Under the pieces are notes generated by a model. That model made no database searches. It saw only the letters and a list, made by a program, of their open reading frames with translations, and had not been told where the DNA came from. From IMG/VR virus record IMGVR_UViG_3300013005_005109, positions 1 through 23,318 of that record: a DNA stretch of 23,318 bases; one strand, written 5' to 3'. Source of the stretch: a virus. Made by a program: the position numbers and the translations under genes. This document shows positions 5,201-21,270 of this stretch, piece after piece (position 1 is the first letter of the stretch; the number at the start of each line of letters is the position of its first letter).

Positions 5201-7597
5201 TCTAGACCCGCCAGAAACTGCATCCCACGAGTGATAAGGAATTGAAATATAGGCCCCCGCAGAAACGCTTATAGGAGAATTTGCCGTGTCTGCCCTGCTG
5301 TCAATAAATTTAACATACGACAATGTCTTTTCTGCAAATGTAATAGACGAAGCCTTTTTTTGCGTATCAGTAAGGTTTGTGTATTTTTGATTTGTGCCGG
5401 TACTTGCATAATAAATATTAGAAGCGGTTAGGTTGCTGCCCGGGGCCCCTACGCCAGTAATAATTTTTGCAGTGCCAGAAAAGCTTGTGTACGGCGATGG
5501 AAGCGTAACATCAACCACCTCTCCACGGTCAAAAGCATGAGCCGACGCGTCTCTTGAAATTGACAAGGCTTTATCCGTTAGCAAGACCTGCGCAACATTG
5601 CTTGTTCGACTAATCGCCCCAATGCGAATAGGAACGCCAGAGTTTCCAGGAGCAGAGCCAACCTCCGTGACGGTAAATCTCCCATCATAGGTAGTTGATC
5701 CGTTTACATGAATCACATCGCCAACATTAAAATAGGAAGTTGCACTATCGTAATAAAGTGTTGTGATTGTGTCCAGCCGCTGGCCAGAAATAAGCTTTAA
5801 GCGTTTTTCAAACGCCCCAACGGATTGCACGCGATTCAAGGCCACAAACGACGCGTATGCCGTTCCGCCGCTAGTGTATGTTCTGTTAGTGGAGTTACGA
5901 ACCTTAAATGTTGTTGGCGTCGAATCTTCGATAATTGTAAAGCTTACGTTAAAAGATCCGGTGGAACCACCGGATTCCGTAATTCCGCTAACGGCAATCG
6001 GGTCGCCAATAAGAAACGTATTGTTGCAAGTATACGTTGCAAAAGTACCGTCAGACGTGGCTCCGGTTACGGCTGCCGACCGCAGCGAAAGGCCCGGGTC
6101 AACATTTGTCTCAATACGCAAAACGGTTTCAGATTGTTTGTTTGCTCGGAAGCCAGCAGAGTAGTCTCCCACTCGGCTATAGTCAACATTTCCAAGAGCA
6201 AGAATCTGCCCCGACTCAAAATTGTGATCAGAGATTGTTGTAATATCTAGGTAATTTGACGCCGCGTCATACGCGCCAATGCTTGTAAGGACGTACATCT
6301 CTTTAATTTCATTGTCAAGTCGATAGAGGCGCAGGCGTTCGTCTGAGTCAAGCGACCTTGGGTCGGCAGCTGCCCTGGTGATGTCTGACTTGCCCTCGGA
6401 CAATGGAAGGAAGATCTTTGCCCCTAGCTTTTCTGGGAACTGGGCATCCGGAACATAATTGATTGGGCTAAAGCGCCAATCGCTGCCTTCGGTGACAACG
6501 TATCCGGTAGTGCTTGTTGGGCTGTCATAGTTAATGCCATGCGCAATTGAAACCCCAGAATAAGGATCTGTCTTGTTGACGTCTTCAAAGAAGGAGATAG
6601 TCCAAGGCGTACTCCGGCCGGACTTCTCATCGGGAATTTGAACCGTTCCGGTAGCTGCTCCAGAGGTAACCGTGCCAGAGGTTGTGGTTGTGTAGGTAAT
6701 AGAGGTGTTCGCTACAACGCTGGTAATCTTGTACGTGCCGTTGAGGGCCGCATAGCCGGTAGGGCCAGTTGCAAGGGCAACCTGAACCGTATCGCCGACA
6801 ATAAATGCGTGTGTGCCAACTGTAATGGTTGCTGTGCTGCCAGCTCTTGCCGCGTTCGTTACAGAAACCGGGCCAGCGTAGGTAGAAGAATTTGTTGCGG
6901 TATAGCCAATAAGTGAAAGAATGGAGGCAACTGTCCACGTGCCGTTATAATTGCTTGTCTGATCAATGCTGACCTTTTGGCCAACAATAAGGTCATGGGC
7001 GTCCTCAAGCGTTACGGTAATCACTCTGGTTGGGCTGCCGCCGCCGCTGCTTCCGTTGATGATCTTTGTGATCTTTACACCGTTTTTGTCGGCGTCTGTT
7101 TGGTATCCGCCACGGATAAGCTCGTAGTCATATGTCTCAAATGGAGCTTTGTACCGGTCAATAACAATCTCGTCAAGAAGGGCGGTATAGTCGGAGCAGG
7201 TGACTTTGGTTGTAATAGTGCCGCCCGCTCGGACCCTGGCAACCTCCATGACGACCCCGCCAAAGAGCAGGGTGGCGTCTTCGTAGATCTGAACCTCTGT
7301 CCGGGGCGGGATCTCAAAGTCAAAGGTGTGGTCGTTTAGGGCATTTTGCACCTTGTCATCTACTGTTGCCCCGGAGTAGCTGGACCAGTCGGTAATCGAG
7401 AGTGGAAACATGGTAAACATGTCGAATTTGGCCTCGCCCAAAGAGCCGTCTGAGCTCTCGGTGAAGGTAAAGGAACTATCCGCCCCGCCTTCTGAAAAGC
7501 TGATGCGCCGGGTAATGTCAAAGAAACCATCGCCCACAGGGGTATGGTTTAGCAGCTTGGGCTTGATCTTTACCGTTATCGTTCCAGTGTAGTTCAT
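2225..7597 (-). CDS. Large tail hub / adsorption protein with nested lectin, CBM, FCCH-like and Fn3 modules (1,790 aa)
   Basis: Directly follows the tape measure gene, where siphophages encode tail-tip proteins. Residues 1-165 look like a tail hub domain (FEIPPRTEVQIYEDATLLFGGVV, then VTCSDYTALLDEIVIDRY). About 1100-1170 and 1313-1500 resemble the rest of that hub (MTLRQAMDYICKKTGSQYWI, DANKNLHYQRRDV, NRLYLYGKA). Between these lie six beta-barrel modules with an 'aHaf..Gd.v.v......lnG.y.v' pattern (near 201, 263, 458, 523, 621, 685), and then a LamG/concanavalin-like domain (about 825-1094, ending DGLIGNIYVLDRVLRNAERD). A seventh module (846-903) lies within the LamG domain. A carbohydrate-binding-like jelly roll follows (about 1172-1313). 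The C-terminus is an Fn3 domain (about 1528-1756) split by an eighth module (1602-1663). It likely forms the tail tip and binds surface glycans. Its TAA overlaps the next ATG as TAATG. Confidence 0.8.
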   Translation of the reverse strand: MNYTGTITVKIKPKLLNHTPVGDGFFDITRRISFSEGGADSSFTFTESSDGSLGEAKFDMFTMFPLSITDWSSYSGATVDDKVQNALNDHTFDFEIPPRTEVQIYEDATLLFGGVVMEVARVRAGGTITTKVTCSDYTALLDEIVIDRYKAPFETYDYELIRGGYQTDADKNGVKITKIINGSSGGGSPTRVITVTLEDAHDLIVGQKVSIDQTSNYNGTWTVASILSLIGYTATNSSTYAGPVSVTNAARAGSTATITVGTHAFIVGDTVQVALATGPTGYAALNGTYKITSVVANTSITYTTTTSGTVTSGAATGTVQIPDEKSGRSTPWTISFFEDVNKTDPYSGVSIAHGINYDSPTSTTGYVVTEGSDWRFSPINYVPDAQFPEKLGAKIFLPLSEGKSDITRAAADPRSLDSDERLRLYRLDNEIKEMYVLTSIGAYDAASNYLDITTISDHNFESGQILALGNVDYSRVGDYSAGFRANKQSETVLRIETNVDPGLSLRSAAVTGATSDGTFATYTCNNTFLIGDPIAVSGITESGGSTGSFNVSFTIIEDSTPTTFKVRNSTNRTYTSGGTAYASFVALNRVQSVGAFEKRLKLISGQRLDTITTLYYDSATSYFNVGDVIHVNGSTTYDGRFTVTEVGSAPGNSGVPIRIGAISRTSNVAQVLLTDKALSISRDASAHAFDRGEVVDVTLPSPYTSFSGTAKIITGVGAPGSNLTASNIYYASTGTNQKYTNLTDTQKKASSITFAEKTLSYVKFIDSRADTANSPISVSAGAYISIPYHSWDAVSGGSRTAATPSTSFITMPNDSIDYMGGRQSVDFESSEFQGIGTSKYAEIAYVSRASNVVTIRTKAPHAFIEGETVTVAASAPYTSLNGSYGISDATAGTFTFSLAGSNITEAAATGSATSVGTGFYAAGRKMSCICVVKLESLPSSGEYRTVWHHGSITTGQRRELQINDAGAICFMTINNAGSTQRFTTTLLLTVGETAIIFVSYNPAALHMYPAESGSETFAGSGLLTIQKNDETPQTQTVSTIAVTAFGNFTVGHGYTNAGVATSFFDGLIGNIYVLDRVLRNAERDQLVSWMAHYFTISDLLSEDNDYRYLADHPGKIEVNRAKEPFNAMTLRQAMDYICKKTGSQYWIDANKNLHYQRRDVKNLVENATYEDKFGNASSNEWNFGGSFVLSNRSSGPYGYGYAATCAGSTESIARSQYFTVAANEVYFASALMKTSNSEKSRLKIRFYDVSDAQVGSDKTIGAGVNLNNSWQKMWGMVKVPTTAGIVKAALIFHHTSHSSSYTDFYADPKVVKITAEYGFADYGIAPGSSVEMLFDPDLNTILPMKTYESPENISQGGTQANRLYLYGKATTVDQSNSVITPYVKSGQVIRYTFDYVQGVWDTHGKIVEASKADTAPESVEDAVLSASSFWAENGQSIESYEFSHSNNASAGRLTVGSIIPYLWSEVGIVEPLVVKSQTVTIIGGEIYYSVQLAGEPAFQKNAIILVQKEYLTENLGTGKIKFMAPTKLRNLVVQTVDNDGKITTIDQNVQLSWSIDTTNPSNKSITGYEIERRRQELKKTSFSKTNMKAGVTVLTRTPAVAGGISVVSLTFASSTGIDVGAYIQIKGGQIGKQTTKGPKNPSLAGSHEVISVTNSGKTIKFNQYASATHGITELKAKQTKDIPSIVVSWYENVAKTAEAWAPLVTTRSQTYTDDGDTNTAQVKGPGLGINYRYQYRVRAVSSDITTGVKLSGPWSYVPPGYINASAQSGWIYITDSLMLSGVVEPIIGDQ
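3660..4082 (-). other. Carbohydrate-binding-module-like domain in the hub protein
   Basis: Residues about 1172-1313: SNEWNFGGSFVLSNRSSGPY, ARSQYFTVAANEVYFASALM, RLKIRFYDVSDAQVG, SWQKMWGMVKVP and AALIFHHTSHSSSYTDFYAD. This is the beta jelly-roll order of CBM4/9-like, galactose-binding-like domains. It splits the hub region between LHYQRRDV and the continuing AEYGFADYGIAPGS segment, so it appears as another insertion. Confidence 0.6.
4320..5125 (-). other. LamG/concanavalin-like lectin domain with inserted beta-barrel module
   Basis: Residues about 825-1094 of the hub protein. The beginning (GGRQSVDFESSEFQGIG) and the later part (MSCICVVKLESL...EYRTVWHHG, RELQINDAGAICFM, ETAIIFVSYNP, FDGLIGNIYVLDRVL) match the usual LamG order, including the final 'G.ig.iyvldRvL...E...l..wl' strand and helix. 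Between them, residues 846-903 (5060-4890) form a separate module: VVTIRTKAPHAFIEGETVTV, then LNGSYGISDATAGTFTF. Glycan binding is the probable role. Confidence 0.68.
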
Positions 7598-7600
7598 GAT

Positions 7601-10600
7601 TTATGAGGGCCTTGCATATCCGGCTGAGCGTAGAGCACGCGTTTGCGCCTCTGCTACCTTCTTGGCTAGTTTATCAATATCTCCGGCGTTAGAGACGCTT
7701 GGGTTGTTGATTACTACAGATGCGTTGACGGTCTGGCCGCCGCCCACGGCGGTGACGCCCTCTGGCCCACGCATCTTGTGGTTTGGGATAATGCTGCCGC
7801 CAAGGCCGCCTGGAACCAGAAGCTCTGGGCCGCGCTCTCCGACCATATACCCTACGTTAGGCCGAACGGCACCACCAAAGGCACGCCCACCAATCTTCCG
7901 AAGTGGCTCACCAGAGAATGGAACATTTGATGGTCCGTCAAATGGGAACGGGGCATTTGGGCCAACGTTGTACACCGCTCCACCACCGGCCTGGATCATT
8001 TGGGTTCCCTGCTTTGCGGATTCTGGGTTGATGAAGCTAGTGTAAATCCAGTCGCCAAGCATTCCGCCAAGGATGCTGCCGATCATGCCGCCAATAAATG
8101 GGATTGGAATCAAATTGCCAAGGAGGCCGCCAACCAGCGAGCCGACGGTTCCGGCCACTGCTCGCCCCATATCGCCGCCGGTAGCCCCCGTCGTCAGAAG
8201 CCCTGCAATCATGGCTGCCGGTCCGCCAATCTTTGGAAGGATGCTAAGGAGGTTAAACCCTAGAGATGGAATGAGTTGACCGAAATTCTCAAAGTTACCA
8301 CTAATGGCCATCATGGCAACATCTGCAAGGAATCCTGAGAGGAAGTTACCCTTTTTGGTACCGACAAAACTATCTGCCCTTGCGGCCGTACCCTTAAACC
8401 CGCCCTGGTCTGTGGTGTAAGTCTTCATCCCCGGAAGGTTTAGCTTGCCGCCAGTAAATGGTACGGCAACTTTTCGATATTTAGAGCCGTATAGCTCCGG
8501 CATAAGCCCCGCCCTAACAGCCCCAGGGTCCCTAATGCTCCTAAAGTCAAAGGCTCGAGCCACTTCTCGCGGATATTGAGATCGGGCAGCAGCAACGGGC
8601 CTCACTGAGGCCGGAAGAGTTCCCTCTGCTATTTGAGCCTGCACACGTTCGTAATCAAGGTCAAGCAGTTGGCCGGCAGATTGAAGCTTGCCGAACGCCG
8701 CCTGTGTGAAAGGATCAGCAGTACCCCTGTTGGAAAGCGGGTCAGGAAGTGATTCCTGGGTATGCCCCGCGAAAATGTCAGCAAAATGTTCCATTGGGTC
8801 TGCGCCTGAATAAATTGTTGGTAGCGGGAAGTTTCGCGGCATTGTATATTCCGGGCCGGTGGGGTTCGTAGGGATTCTGCCAAGTGGTTTGCTGTTCGCA
8901 GCATTGGTGGCAATTTCCTTAGCCCGGATAGGGTCAAAGCCTTGGGCAATTAGGCTTTTCTCATAGGCTGCAGTCAAATCTTTCATTTGCATTCTTTCTT
9001 GGAGGTCAGCAATATGCCCTCTAAGATCGCCCTTCGTCTTAATTATTCCAATGGTTTCTTTTAAATTTGATGGCTTGAAGGCTTCTAGGTACATCTTCGG
9101 CACGGTGTAGCGATTATTAGTAATAAGGTGTCCAACCTCGTGAATCATTGCATCCGGCAGTTCGGTTAGTGGCGTGCGCGTATCAACTTGAATATTATTT
9201 GTGTCAAAACGAGCAACTCTTGCAGCAAAGCCCGAATCGGGCCCTCCGTCGACAAGGTCAACAGTTAGTCGCTTGCTCGGATCTGATGGGTCAAACATGC
9301 CTTGCGGCGCAGCGGCAAGGGCCAACCGAATGTTTTCAGAAATTATCTTAAGCTTTTCGGCACTAGTATTTCCTACAAGGGTGTGAGGGATGCGTATATC
9401 CCCCCAATCAAAACTTATAAGGTCCGCAGGCAACCCCTGTATAGGAAAACTATATTTATTACCGTATTTATCTGTTTCGCCAATAATACCCTCAAACCTA
9501 TGCTCGTCGATAACTTGAGAAAGAGATGTCCTATCCCTAAATGCTTGCACACCCGGTATAAGGCTTAGGATTGTGTCCAGCATGCCAGGCCTGAGGTCGC
9601 CCATAACTGTTCGTTGAGCCGGCTTGCCCCTCAGGCCCTCTCCCACCCTCAGGACCCGAGACATCATTCTTTCCTGCAGGTCAGCAGCAGGGTTATATGG
9701 GTCTACTACATCTGAAGATGGGAACTTGCTGAAAAGATCAAGCTGTTCGCCGCCGGACTTTGGAATTACCGGCGCGTCATCTAGTAGCATCTTGAGCGCT
9801 GGGGCGTCTACGGGCCCAAGTTCGGGGAAGAGTTCTGGCTGGGTATAGAGGAGGCGCTCTCGGATCAGTGCAACCTTATCCTCAAACGATCCGCCGCGAG
9901 GAATTGTCCTGGCAACACGAGTTCGCTCCGCCTCGATGTCAATGTTTTTAGCGCGCACTCCCTTAAAGTGCTCGTCGGCAGTGACGGCGTAGAGCGCAGC
10001 TTCGTCAATGTTAGTAAACACCCCTGCTCGAAGGAGAGATGCCGCCTGCGCCGCTCGGCCGGCAAGGATGCGGCCTGTCTCCTGCTGCCGGAGAATCGTT
10101 TCCTTTGCTGCAAGAATTTGCTCGGGGTCAACCGGCATACCGCCAGATGAGGCTCGCCAGTCGGCAATTTGCCTCTCAAGAACGTCAGTTGCGACTGCGT
10201 GATTTCCAAGGTCGGTAAAGCCCATTGCCGCAAGCGCAGCAGCCCGTGCTTTTGCTTCAGCGTCATTAAACGGCCGGTAACCGTTTTTGTCATCGATTAG
10301 AGTTGGCAGACCAAGGATTGTCTCGATTTGATCAATTGGAATGCCGCCAGGGATTTGGAACTCTGCAAGCCTGGTTGCGCCCTTGCCGCTCTGGGGAAGA
10401 GCAGAGGTAAAGCCTATCCTCTTGTTTTCCGGGAATGAGGCTGGGTCGGTTGCAAAGAATGGGAAATGATAGTCGCCGGATAGGAAGTCATTGAATGAGG
10501 TGGTCACATGAGGTGGCTTGTATCCCGGTCGGGTAACAACCGAAGTAATTGGGTCTGCTCCGCCCAAGCTCATGAGGTCAGAGGCATCTCCGCTGAGCAG

Positions 10601-13600
10601 GTTGCCCAAATGGCCGTAGTCGCCGGCAAGGCCGCCAACAATCGAGCTCACCACGCCCGTAGAAAGCGGTCGTGATCCCCTACCCCAAATGCCGCGCTTG
10701 ACAATATCAAGGCCAGGATCAAGCTCGTAGGTATCTCGCAAGCTCATTGGGCGCGAGATGTTAGAAAGCTGGGACAACCCCAGCATATTTCGTGCAAGGG
10801 TTTCAAGTGGTCCCGGAAGCTTTCCTGAGCCGACAAGCCTGGCCAACGCGTCAGCGAGATCCGGCCCAGGCATGATTGACTTCAATCCAGCCCCGTAAAG
10901 AGCGCTCAGGATATCAACAAAGCCGCCAACTCCAGCCAGATTGCTGTTGCTCATTCCCGGAGGAAGAATCTGATGAATAAATCGGGTAGCCGGGTTGGTG
11001 TAGTCCTCAAGCCAGCTCAGCTTGCCGTCGTAGCCACGGCCGACGTCTGTGGCATCAACTGGCCCGCCCTCAGCTCGGCCGCCACCGAAGCGAATCTTTG
11101 GCATTGCGGTTGGGCTTGGCAAATTCAGAAGCTCGCTTCCCGGCGTTAGACTTGGCTTCGGAGCTGGGTTGTTGAATCCGCGATTGTAATTAAACAAGTT
11201 TCCAAAGAAGCCTAGGTCTTTCTTTTGGCCCATATCAATAGACTGCTGTGTTTGCTTTCCATCCCAGACGTTGCCAAAGAGGAGGTCATAGACACTGCCA
11301 GAAATCGCGTCTAGGGCAGTGGCAACCGCCGCATTTGCAGCAAACATTCCTGCGGTTGCCATTCCGCCGCTGGCTACTACTCCTGCAACATTTGGAACGG
11401 CCATGGCAAGTGCGCCAACATTCATGGCAATATTGCGCACCCAGGCACGAGCTGGAGACTCTCCGCGCTCGCTAGCGCCCAAAATGTCAAAGAAGCTCAT
11501 GCCTGTACTGAGGATGGCGGTACCCCTAAACGCCTGGGCCATAACGTTTGCGGCGCTCTTACTTATAGCGTTGCCAGGCTTAAGTTTTATCTTTCCATCA
11601 GGGCCTTCAACCTTTATGCCCGGAACAAAGCCGCTCTTCGGCGACCATGTTTTAATATTTCCAGGACCCTCCCAATTGAATGGGGCAATCTTCCGAACGC
11701 CAATATCGTTCTTAAATCTGTCCCACCAGTTTGGGCGCTTGACTACGGCAAAGGCGTCATCTTCCTCAAACGGAGTCGTTGTGCCCCTGTTATAGCCAGT
11801 GAACTCGCCATTTGGTCCGCCGTAGATTCGACCAATGCCGCCAAGTGGAATGACCGAGTTGATCCACTTTGTATACATCCTAAAATTGAACGGGAACAGC
11901 CCCCATGGATCGTTGGTTGTTGTTGGCGTTGGGCCTGCTGTTGGTGTTGGGGTTGGAGATGGCGTTCCGGTAGGAGTTGGCCTTGGAGTTGGGGTTGGTG
12001 TTGGCTCCCATGACGGCTCTGGCGTTGGGCCCGGGGTTGGGTCCGGGACGAAATCCTGAGGCATGATGCCCTTGCCATACCCAACGTATCCGCCAACCGC
12101 TCGGCCGTATGCGCCGGCACGAAGAGCGCCAGCCGAAGACTTAAGTGTTGATGGGAGTTTATGGTTTGGCGTGACGTATCCGCCGCCCTGCTTGAACATG
12201 GTGAGCATCTCTGGTCCGCGCTCGCCAACCATATAGCTGGTGGCACTGGAGAGGGACCCGCCCATAGCCCTATTCCTGTCTGGGTTATACCCAGCAAGAC
12301 CAGACATAACCATCTGAAGAAGGGTCTGGAACTGCTCCATAAACCCAGTATTCAAATCATCGTATTGGCCGGTTGTGTACTTTCCTCCTGGGGTATAGAC
12401 ATTCTGCATGCGCTGAAGCTGCGCAAGGAATTGGCCAATTTGGTTAAAGCGCTTTACCCGCTCTGGATCGTTTCCGCCAATCTCTGGCTTAACCAGGGCA
12501 TAGTATTCACGGAGCTTTGTCTGAAGGTTCTTAGCATCAGAAATACGTGCCTTAAGCAAGTCCACCATGGTCTGACCCTTGATGGTTCTTGTCTCCGAGT
12601 CTGGGTTCATGATGGCGTTCAGCGCGTCTTGTGCCTTCTTGTACGCAGCAGATTGCGACAAAACGTTTAGGGCGGCAGTAATGGCCTTAGGAAGGGCGGC
12701 AAAGGTCGAGTTAATGTTTGCCTGCAACGCAGCCATGAAGCCAGAGGAGAACGATTCCATGAAGGAGTAGCCCTGGGCAGAAGCGACCTCTAGGTCAAGG
12801 CCAACGTCACCAAAGATGTCCTTAAGCTCGGTAGATGCCTTGGACTTGCTAATCTTGCCTTCTTGGATCTTCTTGAGCAGGTCGTCAATGCGCTCTTGCA
12901 TGACGCGGCTACGCTCTGCCTGATCGAGCTCAAGCGCCCGGGCCTTCTCGTCGTAGAATTGGGTAGTCCCAACGTATGCAGAGCTGGTCTTGCCGGACTG
13001 GATGGCGGCCCCCATTGAGTCAAGACGTGCGCGCTGCTCATCTTGGAACATCTCACGTGCGGCGTCTCGCGCGGCGCGGGCGCGTTCCAGTGGATCAACG
13101 CTAGCATCAAACATGTCAAGGGCGGCCTCTGATGCCCTTGTCCTTGACTCTTCAAGCTGCTGCAGCTTTTCCATCTGCTTTGCCTGGGCTTGCAACGCTT
13201 CGTACTGCTGCTCCAGGACGCCAAGACGGATCATTTCTCCGTCATACAGAACCTCAACGTTTGCAAGTGCTGCAACCTTCTCCTGCTCCAGGGCTTCCTT
13301 TTCGGCCTCAAACAGTGCCTGGATGGCAACCTGTGCTCGGGACATGAGGCGATTAAGCGGGGTCTGGAAGGCTTCCATTGCCTTCTGCATTGCCTCTTGC
13401 GCCTGCTGCAGGAGCTCTCCGGTGGCGTCTAGGGCCTTGGTAAGCAGGCTGATGTACTTTGTTGCCTCGGCATCGCCAGCGCCATACCACTTTGCATAGA
13501 GTTCTTCAACGTATTTCTGATCAAGGTTAAGCGTCTTTGCCACTTCGTCAGGCGAGAACCCCTCTCGAAGCATTTGCTTGATCTTGTCCTGCTGCACTTG

Positions 13601-16600
13601 TTCCAGCTGGCCGATAATGCCAGTTGTGCTCATGGACCACGAAGGATTGTCCCGGAGCCATTGCTGGGCTCGTGATGGATCGCTGTCCGCAACCATTTCT
13701 CTGTTAATTTGCGTGTCGTATCTAGCAGCAGCGCCTTGAGGATCAATGCTTGCGCCCATAAGAGCAAATGTGCGCCTGAGGTACGTTTCAAGGTCATCAA
13801 GGAATCCGCGCTCTTCGGCATAGAGCTCCGGGAACATCTCCTTTGCTTTGTCTTTTCCAACCTGGCCCTCAAGGCGGGTCCTTGTGTCGGTAACAACTTT
13901 TGCCTTTGTGTTAATTGGGTTATTGTTAAATGCCGCTTGCGCTGCTTTTGAAAGCTCCCCAGTAAGGAAAGCCAACGCCATGACCGCACCAGCAATACCA
14001 AAGGTAAGCGCTGCGGTCTGTGCGCTTGTAGCTGCAGTAAGGGCGATGAAAGCGCCGTGCAAGGCCTCTGTTGCCATTCCAACCATCATCATATTGTTAA
14101 AGACAGTAGAAATGCTCTCGTCAAGACCGAGAAGGTTAGAGGCAATGCTGCCGAACATGCCAAACCCGGTCAGTACTCCGCCCAGCATGCCAAGGCGAGA
14201 CCTAACGGCATCAATAATAACGCCGAGCTTAGCGAGCTTCCCGTTTGCTGCGGAAAGTTTGTCTCCAAAACCCTTAACTCTGTTGGTAACGCTTTCTAGC
14301 CCTGCGGCAAGTGCTTGCTCAATTTGGGCTCGCTCGCTGGCACCTACGGTGTCTAGGAAGTCATTGTATCCCTTTGGGTCGTCTATGCTGTATTTCTTTA
14401 GTTCCGCCAATCGTTGAGTTGCGTAATCTACGTCAACGCCAGTATTGAGAACTGAATCTACCCCGCCGGCTGGCGCAATAAATTCTCGACCACCCTTAGA
14501 GGCCCCTAGGGCTTCTATAAATGCAATGGCGCGTACAAGCGCCGGCGATGTGATGGTTTTGCCCGGCGTATTGTCAACGCCGAATCCGGATGCGACTAGG
14601 TTCCCGTCTTGGTCTTGCCTTTGGATAGGAACAAGACGCTGCATGCCATAGCTTTCTACGGCACCAAGGGCCTTGAATGCAAACATGCTGATTTTGAGTT
14701 TTGCCATTTGCTCTGCGGACCTGGCAGCAGCGTTAGCAAACTTTGTCATTGCAAGGGCAAGGCCATCAACCAGAAGTTTTCCGCCGACGAATCCAGCAAA
14801 GAGCACACCAAAGAGCGGAGCAAGAGGCTCAATAACCTTCATTATCCCAGCAAAGGCGGCCAAGATTCCGTCAATGACTGGCATTGCGGTAGAAAGTGCC
14901 GAGGCAATTGTAGCGGCAAGCGTCCCGATTGATGCGGCTGCGGCTGATGAGACTCCTGGGATTACCGAATTGGCGATTGAATCCGCTGAGCTAAGGATGC
15001 CCGGGGCAGCTCGGTCAAAAGCAGAGCGAACGCCATACTGGTTATTTTCATAGGCGTTAGCAAGGAACCCAACAAGGGCCGTGCTGGCTCCAAGAGTTGC
15101 TACAAGCGGGTTGCTACTGATAAATCCAAACAGGGCCCTGGCAACAATAATTGATGCGCCAAGCTTGCGGATAACATCATTAGAGAGGATCTCGGCCATT
15201 GCCTTAAATCCAGAAACCGAGGAGGTAATAAATGCGTTTAGAGGACCCCCGCTGGCCGTTACTGCGCCGCCGATGCCCCCAAGTGTCTTAAGCACGGCAT
15301 CCATAAAGCCGCCGGCGACACTAAGTCCCTCTGGGAGGCCAGATCGGATTGCCTCCGCAACAGTTTTAACTGAACGTGCGAATAGCTGAGATGCCTTTAT
15401 TGCCTCTTCGCCCTGGAGGAATGTTGCAAGGCCGTCGTTAAACTCTTGAGCCTTTGTTCCAGCAAGAAGGTCTCGCATAACCGAGAACAGTGGATTAAAC
15501 GCTGTTGCAACAAGCGACTGAGACGTATCCGCAACAGTCGTCATTGCTCCTTGGAAGGTGCGTGAGAACGCCTTCATACCGCCGCCGTATTTTGCCTCCA
15601 GCCCCTGCAGGATCGCCTGAACTCCGCCAGGCCCAGAGAGGGCGCCGATGCGAGCAAGGCGGCGGATTTCTTCGATGGCGGACTGTGGGTTTAGCAGCTT
15701 CTTGTATGTTGCGCTAGCGGTTTGCCCAGTTCGCTCAAGCTCCGCAAGCAAAGCGTTGGCAAGAATTTCATATCCGGCGATACCAGCGTTTGCCAGCTGC
15801 ATCATGTCGTTTTGATAGACGCGTCCAGCAGAGTTCATTTGTCCGAGTGCGTACGTTACTCGGCGGAGCTTATCGTCTTCGGCACCGAGTGCCGCAACGG
15901 CGTCTCCAATGTTTACAAGCGCCCCACGGAATTCCTTCAGGCCGGTTGTTGAGTACGGGTTGGTAAACGACTCGAGAATCGGCATTTGACCTTGGGCTTT
16001 TGCTTTAACGGAGTCAACCTCGAAGCCGAATGCTTGCATGCGGACGGCTGCAACCTCAAGGTCACCGAACCTGAAGTTTGTGACGTTGGCAAAGTCTTTA
16101 AGGGTTTGAATTGTTGATTCTGTTTCCCGCTGTGCTTCCCTTACGCTGCGTCCTGCATTCTTGAAGAGTGTATTAAATCCAACTCCGGCGGACTCAAGCA
16201 TGGCGTTAAAGCCAATGATGCCGCCCATGAGGTGTTGGATTCCGCCGGCAAAGGCAAAGATTGCCTGCTGGCCAATGGCAAACGAAAGACCAAGCGAAAG
16301 AACGCCGGTTACGGATTGTGTCAATCCGGTATTTGCCTGGGTCAAAACATTTGCTAGCTGACCAAATTGAACGCGACCATCTTGGATGACAAGATTAAGT
16401 CGGCTGTTGGCGGCTCTGGCTGCCTCTGCCGCCTTGGCATTATTTTGGAACTCTGTAACTGCTTGCTGCTTGTTTACTACAGAGGCTTCTGCCTGGGCGC
16501 CGTACTGGACTTGTGCCTCTCGGTATTGCCCAACTGGGCTAAAGCGCTCAAATATACTGCGTCCGTAGGATGATGCAGTCCGCATTCGGGCCGCACGAGC

Positions 16601-19600
16601 CTCGGCTTCTTGGCGAGCCCTCTCAACAAAATCAATAGGTTGGCCGCTGAGCGGCACAAGTGAACCGCCAGGTGGAATGTTGTAGACAGGCTCACCGCCT
16701 GGCAGGCGGAACTGAGGGCCAGATTCATTTGGGTAGGCACCGGCAGGCAAGAAACCGCCACGGCGGGTTATTGGCAGTGGCATGCCAACGAGACTGCCCT
16801 TCTGTACTAGCGCGCCACTTTGGGCAATCTCGGCATTGATCTGTGAAACGGTAGACTGGAGGATGGTCTTTGTAAGCTCATTGAGCTGCTGCTGAACCCC
16901 CGGATCATCTGCGGCCACTCCGGGCTTTTGCCCCTTAATAATCTTTTCAAATGCTTCTGGGTTGATGGCCATGGCAACAGCCTGCTTCTCGGCCTCTGAT
17001 GCGTTGGCCATGAACGCGGCCATCATCTCTGGTGTTCGGTTGGAGATACCGGTTATGCCACGAAGCTCGCTTCCTGGCTTGAGCAGCGAGCCGGTAGCCT
17101 GGATAAACGCACGCTGCAGGGCCTGTTCAAACGGCATGTTAAGGCCCTGGAATTGCTTGGCAGCCCCAGACCGAATGCCGCCCTCTCCGTATGATCGGAT
17201 GGTTTCAGAAAGGATAGAAGCAATCTCAAGGAACGAGGTCTTTGGGAACATCTTGGAAGACTTGCCAAGCTCTCCAATTCCTGCCGAAACTTGGGCAAGC
17301 AGCTCTTGGATTGGAGCCCCGCCACCCTGCACCTTTGCTGCGGTTTCATGAATCTTGGTAGCAAACTCAGTAAAGAGGGTTGAGGCGGAGACAAGCGAGG
17401 GCTTAGTTTTAAATGCTAGCTCCTGAAGATGTGGTGTGAGTTGCGCTGCGGCAATGCCAACGCCAAGCCCGGGGGTATTGAAGCCTTGCGGCCGCGATTG
17501 AGCATATTGGTGAAAGGCAAGATTGGCGAGGAGGCCACCAGTCTTTTTAGAGATCTCTGCCTGGAGTTGGTAGAACATTGGGTCAGCATGGCTAATTCCT
17601 CTGCCGCCTTCAGCGGAAAGAATTCCTTGCAGGCTCTTTTCTCCAAGCTTTTCTCCCTTTGGCCCGTAATGCATCGCTGTGGCTGGCGGCGTATAGCCAC
17701 CCTCCTTCATCCGCTCAAATGCACCGTGCGCAATTTCATGGATTGCAGTACGAAGAATGGCTCCTGAGCCTCGGTTTAGGTTTCCAATCTCCAGGAACCC
17801 GGCAGCTGCACCGGTAGTTGTCTGCCCCTGCAAGCCTTCACTCTCGCCAGGGAGTCCACGGAACGACGCCTTAAAGTGTTGCAAAATCTGAGATGCAAAG
17901 TTCCTTTCTAGGAAAGGCTTAAATGCCTCAGTAATGCCCGGAAGCACGCCCTCAACGGCCTCGGTCATAAACTTTGTATTGGCGGTGCGCGGACCGACAG
18001 AGGCGCTCTTACCAAACATGAGTCGCTCAAAGCGCTGCATTCCTGGGGTCCTGGCAACAGCCTCAGCGGCAGCCTGGGTAGCTGCTTGTGTTGCGGCTTG
18101 GGTAGCGGCCTGGGTAGCTGCTTGTGTGGCTGCCTGTGTTGTGGCAGGAATCAGGCTGGCCGTTGACTGGCCAGATGAGGCGGATGCAATGAGCGCTTGA
18201 TGCGACGCAAGTGGCGGGACCAACAGGCCACGAGTCTCCATGAGGGCACGTGCCTTATTCAGCTCGGCAATCATTCCCTCAACGTGAGCCGAGCCAAAAG
18301 CATGACCGCCCTGCATGCCAACCTTAGCCAACTCATTGGCAAGATTTTTATACCCCTGAGTAAGGTTTTTGTTTAGTTGTTCCTGACGAGCCGGGTCAGA
18401 CTCTTCGTACGGCAGGTATCCACCGGCACGAGCCTTTGCAGAGCCCTTAGCAGTTCCGGTTGCGCGCGGATTAAGGCGATATGAGCGTGCGCTTTCTGGG
18501 CGACGCATCGAAACTGGTTCCTCTGGTTCCTGTGGCTCTGGGGCCGCCGTAGGTGCCTTTGGGGGCTTAGGAGGCTTCTCTCCGCCGCCGCCGCCGCTAG
18601 AAGCTGGGGGCGCTGAGCCAAGATATCCAGGGTCTCGGGCTGCAGAAGCCTGGATTGCGCCCTCAACGGCCTCTTGGATAAGGCGCTCGACGCCCCTAGC
18701 GCCCTTACCCTGCCCAGACTTGAGTCCGGCAAGCATGGTGGCAGCTGCCTCTTGTGCAATCTGCAGTGCAACACGTGGGTCTGCTGTGATTGCGCTTGGG
18801 TCAAGCCCCATGCCGCCTTGGGTTGCAGACATTGCGCGTCCGCCATAGGTAGAAAGGCCGGCAAAGAATGCAGGAAGGCCCCGGCCAGCTGCAAGAATGC
18901 TTGAGGCAAGCTCAACGCCTTGGGCGGACGGCTCTCCAAAGGCAGTTGTTTGCGCGGTAATAAGTTTTCTGGCTTCTGCAAGCTTGCCAGCAACCCTTCC
19001 CATTCTGCTTGCCCCGCCGGCAACCGCCTGGGCAGCATTGATCAGCTCAATTGCTTCTGGGAGCGCATTGTAAATCGGGTCCATTCCGGCTGGAATCTCT
19101 CCAGCGCCAATTCTGCCTCGAAGTTGCAGCTGTGGCCCAACCGCCTTGTGAAGTTCTCTTAGTAGCGGCGCTGGAATGCCGCCGCGCTCGCCTTCCAGAA
19201 TCCTGCCGACCATGCTCTCAGTTGCAGCGTTGTTACCAAATGCCGTAGAGAGCAGCACGCCCTCCATAAGCCTTTGCAGCTTTGGACTAGTTCCTCCCTT
19301 GGCTGTCTGGTACTCAGAACGCACTCGCTCTACGGGAATTTCAGCAAGAACAAGCTGCTTTAGCTCTTCGACGGCAGATCCGCCCTTGCGGATTGTTGGG
19401 CCAACATTTCCGCGCTCAAAGCCGCCAGGAATCCGTGCAATAGTTTTAGAAATCGCTTGCGCAATTTCCGCTTCGGTCATGCCGGTAGAGAAGTTAAGCA
19501 TGGAGCCAAGGCGTGAGCCTTCTCGTGTGCCAATTTTTTCAAGGCTTGCCGTAAGCTCTCGCGTCACCACCGGCGTCCTTCCGGCTTGCACTATTGCTAT

Positions 19601-20698
19601 AGCCTCGTTAATCGCCCTTGTTACGCCCGATGGCCCGCCAAATGCTGCTGGATTTTTTGTAATAAACTCTCGTACTGCTGTAATAATTTGCTCTTTCCCT
19701 GGCTTGGTGGAGGCAAGTTGCTGCATGCCAAGCGTTCGGGCATTTCCGGAAAGAACCAATGCGGCTTTAGATACCTCAGAGCGAACTGTCGCAACAATTC
19801 CCTCTGCAAGGTTAGGGCTACCGTAGAAAATCTTCTGTGGGTCAAATCGGCCGGAGATTTCCTCAATGAGCTGGCGAGAGGCAACGCTTTCAGCTCGGCC
19901 AGCGCCACCACGAGCACGTGGTTGAAGATACTGCGGGTATGCGGGCTGCCTTGAGGTAACAAGCTCCTCAAGCGCCTGGACAACATACCTTGCCTCTATT
20001 TTTCCGCCAGAACTGCGCGGGTCGGCAAAGCTTTCGGCCGGGGCTGGCTTTGGTGTTGCGGCACGCTTAGGTGCCCGGGCAGGCCTATCGCTCTCCACGT
20101 CATCAATTAGGCCAGACCGTCGCAGCTGCGAGCGTATGTTTTCAACGTTTCTGCGGTCACCTCCGGTAGATGGGAAGAAGACCATGCGCTTGGACTTGTC
20201 TGGCGGGTAGGCAACAAAGTGTCCGCCATTGGTCTTTTCAATGCGGAACCCTTGGCGTTCGGCCTTTGCCATCAGGGCTCGTAGGCTTGCCTCTTGGCCA
20301 CGGCGAATCCTGGCGTCTTGAACTATGCCTGAGGAGGATGGGGAGGAGGAGACCCGCCCGGCCTGGCGCTGGACACGCTCCGAAGCTGCGGCTAGTCGGG
20401 ACATTTCCTCCATAGAACGACGAACGGCCCCGCCGACACGGATCGCATTGCGTTCCATGTCGCGCAGAGCCGGTATCGCCGTGCGAGTAATGTCTTTTGC
20501 AAATCCGGCAACGGGGGACTTCGATCCGCTGCCGAGTAGGCCGCCAGACGCAAGGGAGATTTGCTTGTTCGCAGACTGCAAGGCCTTAAGGCCGCTGAGA
20601 AGCCTGTCAATGTCGCGGAGCGTACGGGCTACACCGTCCTGGAATGCGGCAGAGTCAAGCGATATGCCAACCCGTGCTACATTATCAATCTCGGCCAC
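7601..20698 (-). CDS. Giant multidomain tape measure protein (4,365 aa)
   Basis: Tape measure protein, the helical ruler inside the tail tube that is released when DNA is ejected. It begins at GTG (20698), eight bases after a GGGGGG stretch and just after the chaperone stop, with a typical start (VARVGISLDSAAFQDGV). In order: HicA-like fold (about 137-199); helical region; Gly/Pro linker (about 695-727); AATQ repeats (856-875); zincin-like domain with HEIAH (987-991); tape measure core (about 1465-1740); several long hydrophobic stretches (about 1800-2300); coiled coil (about 2417-2573); VGERGPE motif (2824-2830); Pro/Thr linker (about 2885-2929); a second half of about 1,400 residues with a hydrophobic stretch and a second zincin motif HEVGH (3853-3857) plus E3970; Gly-rich hydrophobic region; a second VGERGPE (4286-4292). 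No lysozyme, NlpC/P60 or M23 domain was recognised. It is far longer than most tape measures (about 700-2,000 aa). The stop TAA is 3 nt before the hub gene start. Confidence 0.93.
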   Translation of the reverse strand: MAEIDNVARVGISLDSAAFQDGVARTLRDIDRLLSGLKALQSANKQISLASGGLLGSGSKSPVAGFAKDITRTAIPALRDMERNAIRVGGAVRRSMEEMSRLAAASERVQRQAGRVSSSPSSSGIVQDARIRRGQEASLRALMAKAERQGFRIEKTNGGHFVAYPPDKSKRMVFFPSTGGDRRNVENIRSQLRRSGLIDDVESDRPARAPKRAATPKPAPAESFADPRSSGGKIEARYVVQALEELVTSRQPAYPQYLQPRARGGAGRAESVASRQLIEEISGRFDPQKIFYGSPNLAEGIVATVRSEVSKAALVLSGNARTLGMQQLASTKPGKEQIITAVREFITKNPAAFGGPSGVTRAINEAIAIVQAGRTPVVTRELTASLEKIGTREGSRLGSMLNFSTGMTEAEIAQAISKTIARIPGGFERGNVGPTIRKGGSAVEELKQLVLAEIPVERVRSEYQTAKGGTSPKLQRLMEGVLLSTAFGNNAATESMVGRILEGERGGIPAPLLRELHKAVGPQLQLRGRIGAGEIPAGMDPIYNALPEAIELINAAQAVAGGASRMGRVAGKLAEARKLITAQTTAFGEPSAQGVELASSILAAGRGLPAFFAGLSTYGGRAMSATQGGMGLDPSAITADPRVALQIAQEAAATMLAGLKSGQGKGARGVERLIQEAVEGAIQASAARDPGYLGSAPPASSGGGGGEKPPKPPKAPTAAPEPQEPEEPVSMRRPESARSYRLNPRATGTAKGSAKARAGGYLPYEESDPARQEQLNKNLTQGYKNLANELAKVGMQGGHAFGSAHVEGMIAELNKARALMETRGLLVPPLASHQALIASASSGQSTASLIPATTQAATQAATQAATQAATQAATQAAAEAVARTPGMQRFERLMFGKSASVGPRTANTKFMTEAVEGVLPGITEAFKPFLERNFASQILQHFKASFRGLPGESEGLQGQTTTGAAAGFLEIGNLNRGSGAILRTAIHEIAHGAFERMKEGGYTPPATAMHYGPKGEKLGEKSLQGILSAEGGRGISHADPMFYQLQAEISKKTGGLLANLAFHQYAQSRPQGFNTPGLGVGIAAAQLTPHLQELAFKTKPSLVSASTLFTEFATKIHETAAKVQGGGAPIQELLAQVSAGIGELGKSSKMFPKTSFLEIASILSETIRSYGEGGIRSGAAKQFQGLNMPFEQALQRAFIQATGSLLKPGSELRGITGISNRTPEMMAAFMANASEAEKQAVAMAINPEAFEKIIKGQKPGVAADDPGVQQQLNELTKTILQSTVSQINAEIAQSGALVQKGSLVGMPLPITRRGGFLPAGAYPNESGPQFRLPGGEPVYNIPPGGSLVPLSGQPIDFVERARQEAEARAARMRTASSYGRSIFERFSPVGQYREAQVQYGAQAEASVVNKQQAVTEFQNNAKAAEAARAANSRLNLVIQDGRVQFGQLANVLTQANTGLTQSVTGVLSLGLSFAIGQQAIFAFAGGIQHLMGGIIGFNAMLESAGVGFNTLFKNAGRSVREAQRETESTIQTLKDFANVTNFRFGDLEVAAVRMQAFGFEVDSVKAKAQGQMPILESFTNPYSTTGLKEFRGALVNIGDAVAALGAEDDKLRRVTYALGQMNSAGRVYQNDMMQLANAGIAGYEILANALLAELERTGQTASATYKKLLNPQSAIEEIRRLARIGALSGPGGVQAILQGLEAKYGGGMKAFSRTFQGAMTTVADTSQSLVATAFNPLFSVMRDLLAGTKAQEFNDGLATFLQGEEAIKASQLFARSVKTVAEAIRSGLPEGLSVAGGFMDAVLKTLGGIGGAVTASGGPLNAFITSSVSGFKAMAEILSNDVIRKLGASIIVARALFGFISSNPLVATLGASTALVGFLANAYENNQYGVRSAFDRAAPGILSSADSIANSVIPGVSSAAAASIGTLAATIASALSTAMPVIDGILAAFAGIMKVIEPLAPLFGVLFAGFVGGKLLVDGLALAMTKFANAAARSAEQMAKLKISMFAFKALGAVESYGMQRLVPIQRQDQDGNLVASGFGVDNTPGKTITSPALVRAIAFIEALGASKGGREFIAPAGGVDSVLNTGVDVDYATQRLAELKKYSIDDPKGYNDFLDTVGASERAQIEQALAAGLESVTNRVKGFGDKLSAANGKLAKLGVIIDAVRSRLGMLGGVLTGFGMFGSIASNLLGLDESISTVFNNMMMVGMATEALHGAFIALTAATSAQTAALTFGIAGAVMALAFLTGELSKAAQAAFNNNPINTKAKVVTDTRTRLEGQVGKDKAKEMFPELYAEERGFLDDLETYLRRTFALMGASIDPQGAAARYDTQINREMVADSDPSRAQQWLRDNPSWSMSTTGIIGQLEQVQQDKIKQMLREGFSPDEVAKTLNLDQKYVEELYAKWYGAGDAEATKYISLLTKALDATGELLQQAQEAMQKAMEAFQTPLNRLMSRAQVAIQALFEAEKEALEQEKVAALANVEVLYDGEMIRLGVLEQQYEALQAQAKQMEKLQQLEESRTRASEAALDMFDASVDPLERARAARDAAREMFQDEQRARLDSMGAAIQSGKTSSAYVGTTQFYDEKARALELDQAERSRVMQERIDDLLKKIQEGKISKSKASTELKDIFGDVGLDLEVASAQGYSFMESFSSGFMAALQANINSTFAALPKAITAALNVLSQSAAYKKAQDALNAIMNPDSETRTIKGQTMVDLLKARISDAKNLQTKLREYYALVKPEIGGNDPERVKRFNQIGQFLAQLQRMQNVYTPGGKYTTGQYDDLNTGFMEQFQTLLQMVMSGLAGYNPDRNRAMGGSLSSATSYMVGERGPEMLTMFKQGGGYVTPNHKLPSTLKSSAGALRAGAYGRAVGGYVGYGKGIMPQDFVPDPTPGPTPEPSWEPTPTPTPRPTPTGTPSPTPTPTAGPTPTTTNDPWGLFPFNFRMYTKWINSVIPLGGIGRIYGGPNGEFTGYNRGTTTPFEEDDAFAVVKRPNWWDRFKNDIGVRKIAPFNWEGPGNIKTWSPKSGFVPGIKVEGPDGKIKLKPGNAISKSAANVMAQAFRGTAILSTGMSFFDILGASERGESPARAWVRNIAMNVGALAMAVPNVAGVVASGGMATAGMFAANAAVATALDAISGSVYDLLFGNVWDGKQTQQSIDMGQKKDLGFFGNLFNYNRGFNNPAPKPSLTPGSELLNLPSPTAMPKIRFGGGRAEGGPVDATDVGRGYDGKLSWLEDYTNPATRFIHQILPPGMSNSNLAGVGGFVDILSALYGAGLKSIMPGPDLADALARLVGSGKLPGPLETLARNMLGLSQLSNISRPMSLRDTYELDPGLDIVKRGIWGRGSRPLSTGVVSSIVGGLAGDYGHLGNLLSGDASDLMSLGGADPITSVVTRPGYKPPHVTTSFNDFLSGDYHFPFFATDPASFPENKRIGFTSALPQSGKGATRLAEFQIPGGIPIDQIETILGLPTLIDDKNGYRPFNDAEAKARAAALAAMGFTDLGNHAVATDVLERQIADWRASSGGMPVDPEQILAAKETILRQQETGRILAGRAAQAASLLRAGVFTNIDEAALYAVTADEHFKGVRAKNIDIEAERTRVARTIPRGGSFEDKVALIRERLLYTQPELFPELGPVDAPALKMLLDDAPVIPKSGGEQLDLFSKFPSSDVVDPYNPAADLQERMMSRVLRVGEGLRGKPAQRTVMGDLRPGMLDTILSLIPGVQAFRDRTSLSQVIDEHRFEGIIGETDKYGNKYSFPIQGLPADLISFDWGDIRIPHTLVGNTSAEKLKIISENIRLALAAAPQGMFDPSDPSKRLTVDLVDGGPDSGFAARVARFDTNNIQVDTRTPLTELPDAMIHEVGHLITNNRYTVPKMYLEAFKPSNLKETIGIIKTKGDLRGHIADLQERMQMKDLTAAYEKSLIAQGFDPIRAKEIATNAANSKPLGRIPTNPTGPEYTMPRNFPLPTIYSGADPMEHFADIFAGHTQESLPDPLSNRGTADPFTQAAFGKLQSAGQLLDLDYERVQAQIAEGTLPASVRPVAAARSQYPREVARAFDFRSIRDPGAVRAGLMPELYGSKYRKVAVPFTGGKLNLPGMKTYTTDQGGFKGTAARADSFVGTKKGNFLSGFLADVAMMAISGNFENFGQLIPSLGFNLLSILPKIGGPAAMIAGLLTTGATGGDMGRAVAGTVGSLVGGLLGNLIPIPFIGGMIGSILGGMLGDWIYTSFINPESAKQGTQMIQAGGGAVYNVGPNAPFPFDGPSNVPFSGEPLRKIGGRAFGGAVRPNVGYMVGERGPELLVPGGLGGSIIPNHKMRGPEGVTAVGGGQTVNASVVINNPSVSNAGDIDKLAKKVAEAQTRALRSAGYARPS
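7760..7890 (-). other. C-terminal tape measure signature (VGERGPE), terminal copy
   Basis: Residues about 4270-4313 read FGGAVRPNVGYMVGERGPEL, then LVPGGLGGSIIPNHKM, with VGERGPE at 4286-4292 (7843-7823). A short segment typical of tape measure C-termini follows (VNASVVINNPSVSNAGDIDKLAKKVAEAQTRAL). It is preceded by a Gly-rich hydrophobic stretch (VGGLLGNLIPIPFIGGMIGS) that could enter a membrane during ejection. Confidence 0.85.
8770..9290 (-). other. Second zincin-type metallopeptidase domain in the tape measure protein
   Basis: A beta-rich lead-in (RLTVDLVDG..., ARVARFDTNNIQVDTRT) is followed by LPDAMIHEVGHLI with HEVGH at residues 3853-3857 (9142-9128). At 113 residues downstream lies GADPMEHFADIFAGH, with E3970 (8791-8789). 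The 'dp.E.FAd.FA' helix is the usual place of the third zinc ligand (glutamate) in gluzincin-type peptidases. Both halves of the signature are therefore present, which makes this copy better supported than the first. Substrate unknown. Confidence 0.72.
11912..12046 (-). repeat. Pro/Thr-rich low-complexity linker in the tape measure
   Basis: Residues about 2885-2929 are almost entirely P, T, G, S and E in a PTP repeat (for example EPTPTPTPRPTPTGTPSPTP). It is encoded by GTTGG/GGTGTT-rich DNA on the plus strand. It separates the classical tape measure part, which ends with the first VGERGPE motif, from the additional C-terminal half. An extended, flexible inter-domain linker is the likely role. 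Confidence 0.88.
12140..12265 (-). other. Internal copy of the tape measure C-terminal signature (VGERGPE)
   Basis: Residues about 2812-2853 read AMGGSLSSATSYMVGERGPE, then GGGYVTPNHKLPS, with VGERGPE at 2824-2830 (12229-12209). This 'GG......Y.VGErGPE....GG.v.PN' signature normally occurs once, near the end of tape measure proteins. Here 1,500 further residues follow it, and the same signature appears again at the true C-terminus. Confidence 0.85.
12980..13450 (-). other. Long coiled-coil segment of the tape measure
   Basis: Residues about 2417-2573 are rich in A, E, Q, K and R with few prolines or glycines and regular hydrophobic spacing (LLQQAQEAMQKAMEAF..., ALFEAEKEALEQEKVAAL, LEQQYEALQAQAKQMEKLQQ, ARAARDAAREMFQDEQRARL). 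This is the rod-like, helical part expected to span the tube lumen. Confidence 0.75.
15480..16300 (-). other. Canonical tape measure core domain
   Basis: Residues about 1465-1740 contain the recognisable conserved part of phage tape measures. A hydrophobic segment (IFAFAGGIQHLMGGIIGFNAM) is followed by LESAGVGFNTLF, TLKDFANVTNFRFGDLEVAAVRM, the region with GDAVAALG, LRRVTYALGQMNSAGRVYQNDM, and MQLANAGIAGYEILANAL. The run 'AlgQm...Grv...dm.qLanaGi.gyeiLa' is characteristic of the family (TIGR02675-like). It lies 1,400 residues into the protein, although this domain is normally near the N-terminus. Confidence 0.85.
17430..18040 (-). other. First zincin-type metallopeptidase-like domain in the tape measure protein
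   Basis: The motif ILRTAIHEIAHGAFERM contains HEIAH at residues 987-991 (17740-17726) within a hydrophobic helix, the classic HExxH zinc-binding signature. About 46 residues later, GISHADPMFYQLQAEI offers H1037 or D1039 as possible third ligands, resembling the 'HGp.F' helix of several zincins. The flanks (about residues 887-1090) are mixed helix and strand, unlike the helical tape measure around them. The third ligand and activity are uncertain. Confidence 0.62.
18074..18133 (-). repeat. Five 12-bp tandem repeats encoding (AATQ)5
   Basis: Five consecutive units of A-A-T-Q (residues 856-875) are encoded by imperfect 12-bp repeats. A degenerate unit ATTQ precedes them and AAAE follows. Codons vary between units (GCA/GCT/GCC, ACA/ACC, CAA/CAG). 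The repeat sits just before the first zincin-like domain and likely forms an alanine-rich helical or flexible linker. Confidence 0.9.
20105..20290 (-). other. HicA-like domain within the tape measure protein
   Basis: Residues about 137-199 read as helix, then QGFRIEKTNGGHFVAY, then a basic loop and a strand (PPDKSKRMVFFPST), then DRRNVENIRSQLRRSGL. This matches the HicA/YcfA alpha-beta-beta-beta-alpha double-stranded-RNA-binding-like fold: 'Gf....ggH..y', a 'p' strand and a final helix ending in 'l...gl'. The histidine of the GGH motif is H160, the position of the catalytic histidine in HicA mRNA interferases. The match is by pattern; similar stand-alone or fused domains occur in phage proteins of unknown role. 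Confidence 0.6.
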
Positions 20699-20713: not shown

Positions 20714-21270
20714 CTAGGCCCCCGGCTTTCCGAAGACCGAAATCATTTGCTCCAGAGACCCAACTGTTTTCATCCCTGAAGAACCATCGGCGAATTTCGC
20801 CTTATTTTTACCGGAGGTGTTTTTGGTTTCGCCCTTCATCGCTTCATCACGCTTCTCAACATACTTTGCGTATGCATTGAGTTGTGGAAGCGTAAGTTGC
20901 ATGAACTCGGCTGGGGTATAACCAAAGGCATCTGCATAAGAAGCCATGATCGACCCCCAGTCGATCTCCCCCCAGCTTACGCCTCCGGAGCTTTTCCCTC
21001 GGAAACGCCACCCTCATCGTTGCCGATGAGACCGCTTGAGCGAAGCACCTTGTCGATTTCGTCACGCATTGTATCGAGCGAGAACTTGTCACCTACCGCG
21101 CGCTCATCCATCTTGTTGTCATCCTTGCGAAGGACAAGCCAAAGGATATAACGAAGTACAGTGAACTTGGTAAGGTCGACCTTGTCAAGGCCTCCAAACT
21201 TATCCTCAATGTCCGCGAGGTCGTTGAGGGTGAGTACGCGCGTTGGGCGTACTTGATTAAGGGTTGCCAT
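20714..21270 (-). CDS. Tail assembly chaperone, long (GT-type) product by -1 frameshift
   Basis: Predicted fusion made by slipping back one base at GGGAAAA (20998-20992). It is translated from 21270 to 20992, then from 20992 again to the TAG at 20716-20714, giving 93 + 92 = 185 residues. Directly after the slip the frame reads SSGGVSWGEIDWGSIMASYADAFGYTPAEF and then LTLPQLNAYAKYVEKRDE. This 'WG.I......G.tp.e...LtlpqL.ay' pattern is typical of the T portion of chaperones in lambda-like siphophages. The downstream part also exists as a 77-codon ORF starting at ATG 20947, but that ATG has no well-spaced Shine-Dalgarno and begins in the middle of the conserved segment. Independent translation is therefore less likely. 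The T part is thought to recruit tube subunits to the tape measure. Confidence 0.85.
20948..20966 (-). other. Perfect 7-bp stem-loop downstream of the slippery site
   Basis: The minus strand reads GATCGAC-TGGGG-GTCGATC, a perfect inverted repeat with a 5-nt loop. It begins 25 nt after the slippery heptamer and ends one base before the internal ATG at 20947. That spacing is longer than the usual 5-9 nt for a frameshift stimulator. It may instead, or additionally, block initiation at the internal ATG so that the T segment is made only by frameshifting. The function is inferred. Confidence 0.5.
20977..21270 (-). CDS. Tail assembly chaperone, short (G-type) product
   Basis: A 97-residue acidic, mostly helical protein (TLNDLADIEDKFGG..., LRYILWLVLRKDD, then a polar tail). 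It sits between the tube genes and the tape measure gene, where siphophages encode the G/GT tail assembly chaperones that coat the tape measure before tube polymerisation. The ATG at 21270 has a good Shine-Dalgarno AGGAG (21282-21278) 7 nt upstream. Five codons before its TAA stop lies the in-frame slippery sequence G GGA AAA, which gives a longer product (see the frameshift entry). Size, position and frameshift agree with the family although sequence similarity among chaperones is low. Confidence 0.85.
   Translation of the reverse strand: MATLNQVRPTRVLTLNDLADIEDKFGGLDKVDLTKFTVLRYILWLVLRKDDNKMDERAVGDKFSLDTMRDEIDKVLRSSGLIGNDEGGVSEGKAPEA
20992..20998 (-). promoter_or_regulatory. Programmed -1 ribosomal frameshift slippery site GGGAAAA
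   Basis: The minus strand reads GAG GGA AAA GCT in the zero frame, so the heptamer is G GGA AAA, a perfect X XXY YYZ match, close to the lambda GGGAAAG site. Slippage changes the reading to GGG AAA AGC TCC and enters the open frame of the T-type segment, avoiding the TAA at 20979-20977. It is located at codons 92-93 of the 97-codon chaperone ORF, the expected place. Confidence 0.88.

Follow-up and report, generated by a model that had tools for sequence, protein, structure and literature searches.

The window analysed here is a 23,318-base IMG/VR fragment that carries one giant open reading frame on the minus strand (7601..20698, 4365 aa, GTG start; all features within this ORF are given on the same strand). 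The initial annotation had taken its product for a tape measure protein (TMP), and this was borne out by a Pfam match to TMP_3 at residues 1588-1731 (E 1.3e-8, slightly below Pfam's cut-off) and by a match to the PHROG tail length tape measure group (1.1e-9); tape_meas_nterm (TIGR02675) was matched as well (7e-4). The TMP_3 core (15506..15937) contains an invariant VYQNDMMQLANAGIAGY block and is conserved in 76 related loci, which were collected with the core as query and from which the full TMP frames were extracted. Its matches to Arthrobacter, Bacillus and Meiothermus phages show only 23-31% identity. Bases 1-18566 of the window are 100% identical in a second record, IMGVR_UViG_3300013004_000083 (38,178 bases), which runs on beyond them; the ORF is thus no oddity of a single contig.

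The neighboring genes fit a siphophage tail module, so that both core homology and gene order place the ORF among the siphophage TMPs. Directly upstream of it, a slippery heptamer G GGA AAA (20992-20998) joins two small minus-strand ORFs (20977-21270 and 20714-20947) and is phased such that a -1 shift would lead from the first into the second. Judged from sequence, this supports the usual tail assembly chaperone arrangement with a frameshift, and it backs the identification of the TMP. Two further adjacent minus-strand ORFs (21317-22171 and 22195-22857) share the stretch GGDVEFDI.FQEREF.GQ.NFPIAKA.FGGK and are likely to be duplicated tail tube-like genes. The same phage has, at locus L004, a subtilase gene (8625-9587, plus strand; S8, 3.3e-21; mycosin-like, 1.6e-25) beside the terminase gene.

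The organization of the giant TMP became apparent from comparison with short relatives, whose lengths range from 1537 to 1926 residues. Their alignment covers about residues 1412-2863 of the window TMP and resumes at about 4261-4360, and they contain a single VGERGPE motif with the C-terminal tail directly after it and no intervening cassette. In the window TMP this motif is present twice, at residues 2824-2830 (12209..12229) and 4286-4292 (7823..7843), and the second copy precedes the conserved C-terminal tail. The two-part alignment implies that the single motif of the short proteins corresponds to both copies, and that the window TMP is a short TMP to which a large N-terminal extension and, at the duplicated motif, a cassette of about 1460 residues (2831-4285; 7844..12208) have been added. 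The first part of this cassette includes a hydrophobic segment (residues 3090-3108; 11375..11431). A second, glycine-rich hydrophobic segment (about residues 4150-4240; 7979..8251) has hydropathy peaks at residues 4150-4168 and 4188-4206 and is possibly a membrane-inserting module. It adjoins a putative metallopeptidase domain, is common to the relatives' cassettes that carry such a domain and is absent from those that do not.

This domain spans residues 3756-4025 (8624..9433), as delimited by the profile alignment of the relatives, an AlphaFold2 model and fold searches. It contains HEVGH at residues 3853-3857 (9128..9142), which would provide two zinc ligands and the catalytic Glu, and EHFADIF at residues 3970-3976 (8771..8791), in which E3970 (8791-8789) is the predicted third ligand. 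E3970 lies within DPMEHFADIFAGH, 113 residues past the second His of HEVGH, and the positions given for both motifs in the initial annotation proved exact. Only 0.012 HExxH motifs per protein are expected from composition; the TMP has two. Shuffling the protein 500 times produced HExxH four times, in no case with E-x-[FYW]-A-[DEQ]-x-[FY] within 160 residues. Both motifs occur together in all 13 TMP loci that carry the domain, with the first in the form HE[VIFT][GA]H and an H-to-E spacing of 55 to 153. The loci fall into about seven lineages and are 18-49% identical to the window. Elsewhere in the 49,209 residues of the related TMPs, the E-x-[FYW]-A-[DEQ]-x-[FY] pattern did not occur. In an alignment of 12 sequences (alignment numbering), H116, E117 and H120 are invariant, and E233 and A236 are conserved in at least 90%. 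One apparent exception (L010) proved to be an alignment slip, as EMYAQLF is present 104 residues past its HEFGH. Since the ligands stay fixed in 13 of 13 loci while the rest of the domain diverges and the insert between the motifs varies in length, the two histidines and the glutamate clearly do not vary freely. Taken together, these patterns support a conserved predicted zincin with its third ligand on an E-helix.

A profile built from ten of the C-terminal domains matched a subset of the related loci with E values far below 1e-30, but none of the other reading frames of these loci; among the related loci examined, no phage with a short TMP was found to carry the zincin as a gene of its own. 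None of the Pfam, PHROG and NCBIfam models recognises the zincin domain in the window, and Zincin_1 appears in three of 12 relatives at 0.067. When the domain alone was searched by sequence against solved structures, the matches did not rise above chance level and most were designed armadillo repeats. In a profile search of the PDB, an M34 peptidase was the top hit, and its alignment includes the two motifs in the right order, EHFADIF falling on its E-x-F-A-E-x-F, although at an E value of only 0.07.

The structure predicted by AlphaFold2 from the 12-sequence alignment has a mean pLDDT of 69.6 and a pTM of 0.72; in the zincin core, sheet and helices reach values of 75-91, and residues 200-226 of the model fall below 50. 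Its helix 107-126 carries HEVGH and its helix 231-245 carries E233, which corresponds to E3970. Strands precede the active-site helix at 21-25, 29-34, 74-79, 89-91 and 98-102, as in solved gluzincins. The features of gluzincin clan MA(E), namely an HExxH helix, a downstream Glu helix and a preceding beta sheet, are thus all present in the predicted fold. All 50 matches listed by VIA are zinc metallopeptidases, led by the M30 peptidase lugdulysin (Z 8.1, 144 aligned residues, rmsd 3.9) and followed by M1 aminopeptidases, M34 and a Pro-Pro endopeptidase (PPEP); with hard models, the best background matches come close to a Z of 7-8, and the support comes from the agreement among the matches. The top Foldseek matches are likewise zinc metallopeptidases (best E 0.009, all above 0.001). 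Among the viral models listed, the fold matches include a putative peptidase and SprT-like, MuF-like, minor capsid and polyvalent-type proteins. For M34, the profile E value of 0.07 is accompanied by a VIA Z of about 7 that is tied with M1. With good confidence, the predicted domain can be called gluzincin-like, but it is placed in no named family. This agrees with the initial proposal of a gluzincin-like domain, for which the moderate-confidence model provides the active-site helix and the matches to M30, M1 and M34 the fold.

The domain is not embedded in tape measure coil. Instead, it lies in the C-terminal cassette between the two VGERGPE copies, and this arrangement is general: wherever a TMP has a C-terminal zincin and its upstream stretch is intact, two copies of the motif are present. 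No HExxH was found after the core in the 15 single-motif TMPs or in the 19 motif-free TMP ends. In three relatives (L016, L019 and L024), the slot between two copies holds other cargo without HExxH. A Fisher test for association between motif number and zincin presence gave p 7e-6, which serves for orientation only, as the sequences are related and one locus (L088) was counted on the wrong side. In this locus the zincin does lie between two VGERGPE copies, and the miscount stems from the truncation of its TMP core. We consider it very probable that the window TMP carries a real zincin in a cargo cassette.

A closer relative (L006), with a TMP core 99% identical to that of the window, revealed that the cassette can be exchanged. 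Its TMP is 95-100% identical to that of the window over long stretches of the core and 96-99% identical over the last 265 residues, and the zincin in between shares only 34-52% identity. The dS values are 0.11 for the core, 1.93 for the zincin and 0.07 for the tail, where a dS above 1 is saturated and reads only as 'much larger'. This jump between conserved flanks indicates that the module has been exchanged, a different zincin allele having been recombined in and not derived by selection from the existing one. In a further relative (L007), zincin and tail differ in the same way, but there the core has diverged too. The dN/dS of 0.29 in the zincin domain indicates purifying selection. Positive selection was considered as a cause of the divergence and ruled out, since dS rises together with dN at this ratio. 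Allele swapping also affects other parts of the TMP, namely residues 201-500 and 701-900.

These data bear on the question of whether the domain is an enzyme at all. Virion proteins can keep enzyme folds as structural parts, and the zincin activity here is a predicted one, so the domain could be a degenerate or purely structural fold that has no catalytic function. We find this very improbable, because the catalytic Glu and the three ligands have been kept in 13 of 13 loci from about seven lineages in spite of 18-49% identity and variable spacing, and because dN/dS is only about 0.3.

An active zincin might cut the TMP itself or its own cassette, at tail assembly or after ejection, and thereby free cargo or N-terminal domains. 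For polyvalent proteins such as P1 DdrB, autoproteolysis by the zincin is the role preferred in the literature (PMC5512222), the TMPs of T5 and lambda are cut near the C-terminus during morphogenesis (PMC10038345), and the duplicated VGERGPE could mark the boundaries of such processing. However, TMPs that have no C-terminal zincin are common and include the two-motif relatives with other cargo. As they comprise close and distant proteins, TMP maturation does not depend on the domain, which disfavors a general self-processing step. The divergence of the zincin between flanks that are 96-99% identical is also a poor fit to a fixed flanking cleavage site, although a site inside the cassette is possible, and the N4 virion RNA polymerase is packaged unprocessed despite its HExxH domain (PMC5512222). 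Autoprocessing thus seems rather doubtful to us as the main role.

The T5 TMP pb2 provides another precedent. It has a C-terminal metallopeptidase with muralytic activity that adjoins a cleavage site and a hydrophobic, membrane-inserting sequence and is released at entry (PMC10038345). The zincin and the glycine-rich segment of the window TMP occupy a similar position, so the domain might likewise open peptidoglycan at entry; Pfam recognised no other virion peptidoglycan hydrolase in the scanned genes of the window and of L004. Still, we judge wall digestion to be unlikely. The region of pb2 after its cleavage site is much shorter than about 270 residues, the length of the gluzincin-type domain, and the small muralytic enzyme described for T5 differs from a domain within a 1460-residue cassette that is absent or replaced in relatives; no link to it by sequence was observed. 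Some of these relatives carry other cargo and no zincin. T5 is absent from the phage records matched by the zincin, and a search against 50,697 cultured phage records returned no match. Furthermore, the fold matches are to gluzincins that cut proteins and peptides, and exchange together with fast divergence would be odd for an enzyme with a conserved substrate such as peptidoglycan.

The N-terminal extension appears to carry cargo of its own. The initial annotation had shown only one HExxH and missed a second, HEIAH at residues 987-991 (17726..17740). It lies in a region (residues 872-1222; 17033..18085) that is conserved in ten TMPs, in all of which an invariant DPxF (SHADPMF in the window) follows about 50 residues on. 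The model of this region reached a pLDDT of 54, and its matches, to helical bundles, are dominated by residues 228-333. When the N- and C-terminal HExxH regions were compared by hhalign as candidate duplicates, only the active-site helix was joined, with a probability of 52%, which does not establish a duplication. Further upstream, residues 231-332 (19703..20008) match the DdrB-ParB model PF18763 at E 1.4e-4 to 2e-4, which is below Pfam's cut-off. The match is weak in the window and clear in relatives, as it recurs in six of 19 N-terminal parts of TMPs with a best E value of 2.8e-10. Residues 130-197 (20108..20311) match phrog_2089, a group of unknown function (E 1.5e-9). This was the sole match of the segment, and a HicA-like reading made by eye was unsupported by searches of PDB, Pfam and NCBIfam.

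The window TMP thus combines a zincin, a second HExxH and a weak DdrB-ParB match, a mix that recalls the polyvalent type and would presumably be delivered with the virion. Polyvalent proteins, in which DdrB-ParB is a hub domain, similarly contain a zincin of the HExxH-plus-Glu type and several MPTase-like regions and are assumed to be delivered by the virion; zincin-bearing injected proteins of this kind are an established phage strategy (PMC5512222). The paper that describes them does not mention TMPs, whereas the zincin of the window is built into the tail ruler. The N4 virion RNA polymerase, a giant protein ejected from the virion, also has an HExxH domain (C1) in its C-terminal half (PMC12633501), but it is ejected as a separate protein and not as part of a TMP. 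A parallel for a giant TMP with enzyme cargo is gp96 of Thermus phage P23-45, a 5002-aa TMP with an N-terminal virion RNA polymerase, whose metallopeptidase and membrane domains were called 'characteristic of many TMPs' (PMC10770324). In the window TMP no RNA polymerase was found; its cargo, at both ends, consists of HExxH regions and the DdrB-ParB-like segment, and its C-terminal slot, unlike gp96, is exchanged between near-identical phages. Finally, the Sle1-type effectors of actinobacterial contractile injection systems resemble it in placing variable functional domains on a TMP-derived platform, but they belong to a bacterial system and not to a phage, and the abstract on them mentions no zincin (PMC13277306).

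We tentatively propose, at somewhat less than even confidence, that the domain is a virion-borne gluzincin-type metallopeptidase that is delivered at entry and acts most likely on a host protein. Cleavage of a host protein is favoured because the module can be exchanged, changes quickly and is not required for TMP function in relatives. In T5, 80alpha and JBD30, the tail tip holds the C-terminus of the TMP, which has been proposed to be the first part out (PMC11445458, PMC10038345). By analogy, the cassette would leave the virion first, and the glycine-rich hydrophobic segment beside the zincin may help it to reach or cross a membrane. The peptidase could then cut an envelope or cytoplasmic protein of the host. 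If this target differed between hosts, the swapping of alleles would be accounted for. The N-terminal extension, with the second HExxH and the DdrB-ParB-like segment, would be the final part to enter and would immediately precede the DNA. Searches with the zincin against bacterial and archaeal genomes gave no match with either query. A broader idea, which we regard as more speculative, is that these TMPs are the phage counterpart of polymorphic toxins, with a fixed ruler and a C-terminal two-VGERGPE slot for swapped, host-matched effector cassettes that are delivered before the DNA.

TMPs with a C-terminal metallopeptidase (T5 pb2), enzyme-fused TMPs (P23-45 gp96) and injected multi-domain zincin proteins are already known. 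The initial remark that a metallopeptidase in the C-terminal half of a TMP is unusual thus does not hold as such; what does look new is the protease family and the VGERGPE-bounded slot. In the open-access literature, we found no description of a gluzincin cassette in a TMP slot with duplicated end motifs that is exchanged between near-identical phages. If our reading is correct, the tail ruler also serves as a vehicle for cargo, which is inserted at a defined slot, and filled as well as empty alleles of this slot occur naturally. This would give direct access to a little-understood step, namely which molecules other than DNA siphophages bring into the cell and how these change with the host. 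The duplicated VGERGPE and the combination of HExxH with E-x-[FYW]-A are suggested as markers for TMP cargo that homology searches miss.

Two related loci (L021:926-17419 and L040:1097-17410) encode TMPs of about 5400-5500 aa with three separate HExxH regions, and two relatives match the PI3/PI4 kinase family in their N-terminal extension (best E 3.2e-8).
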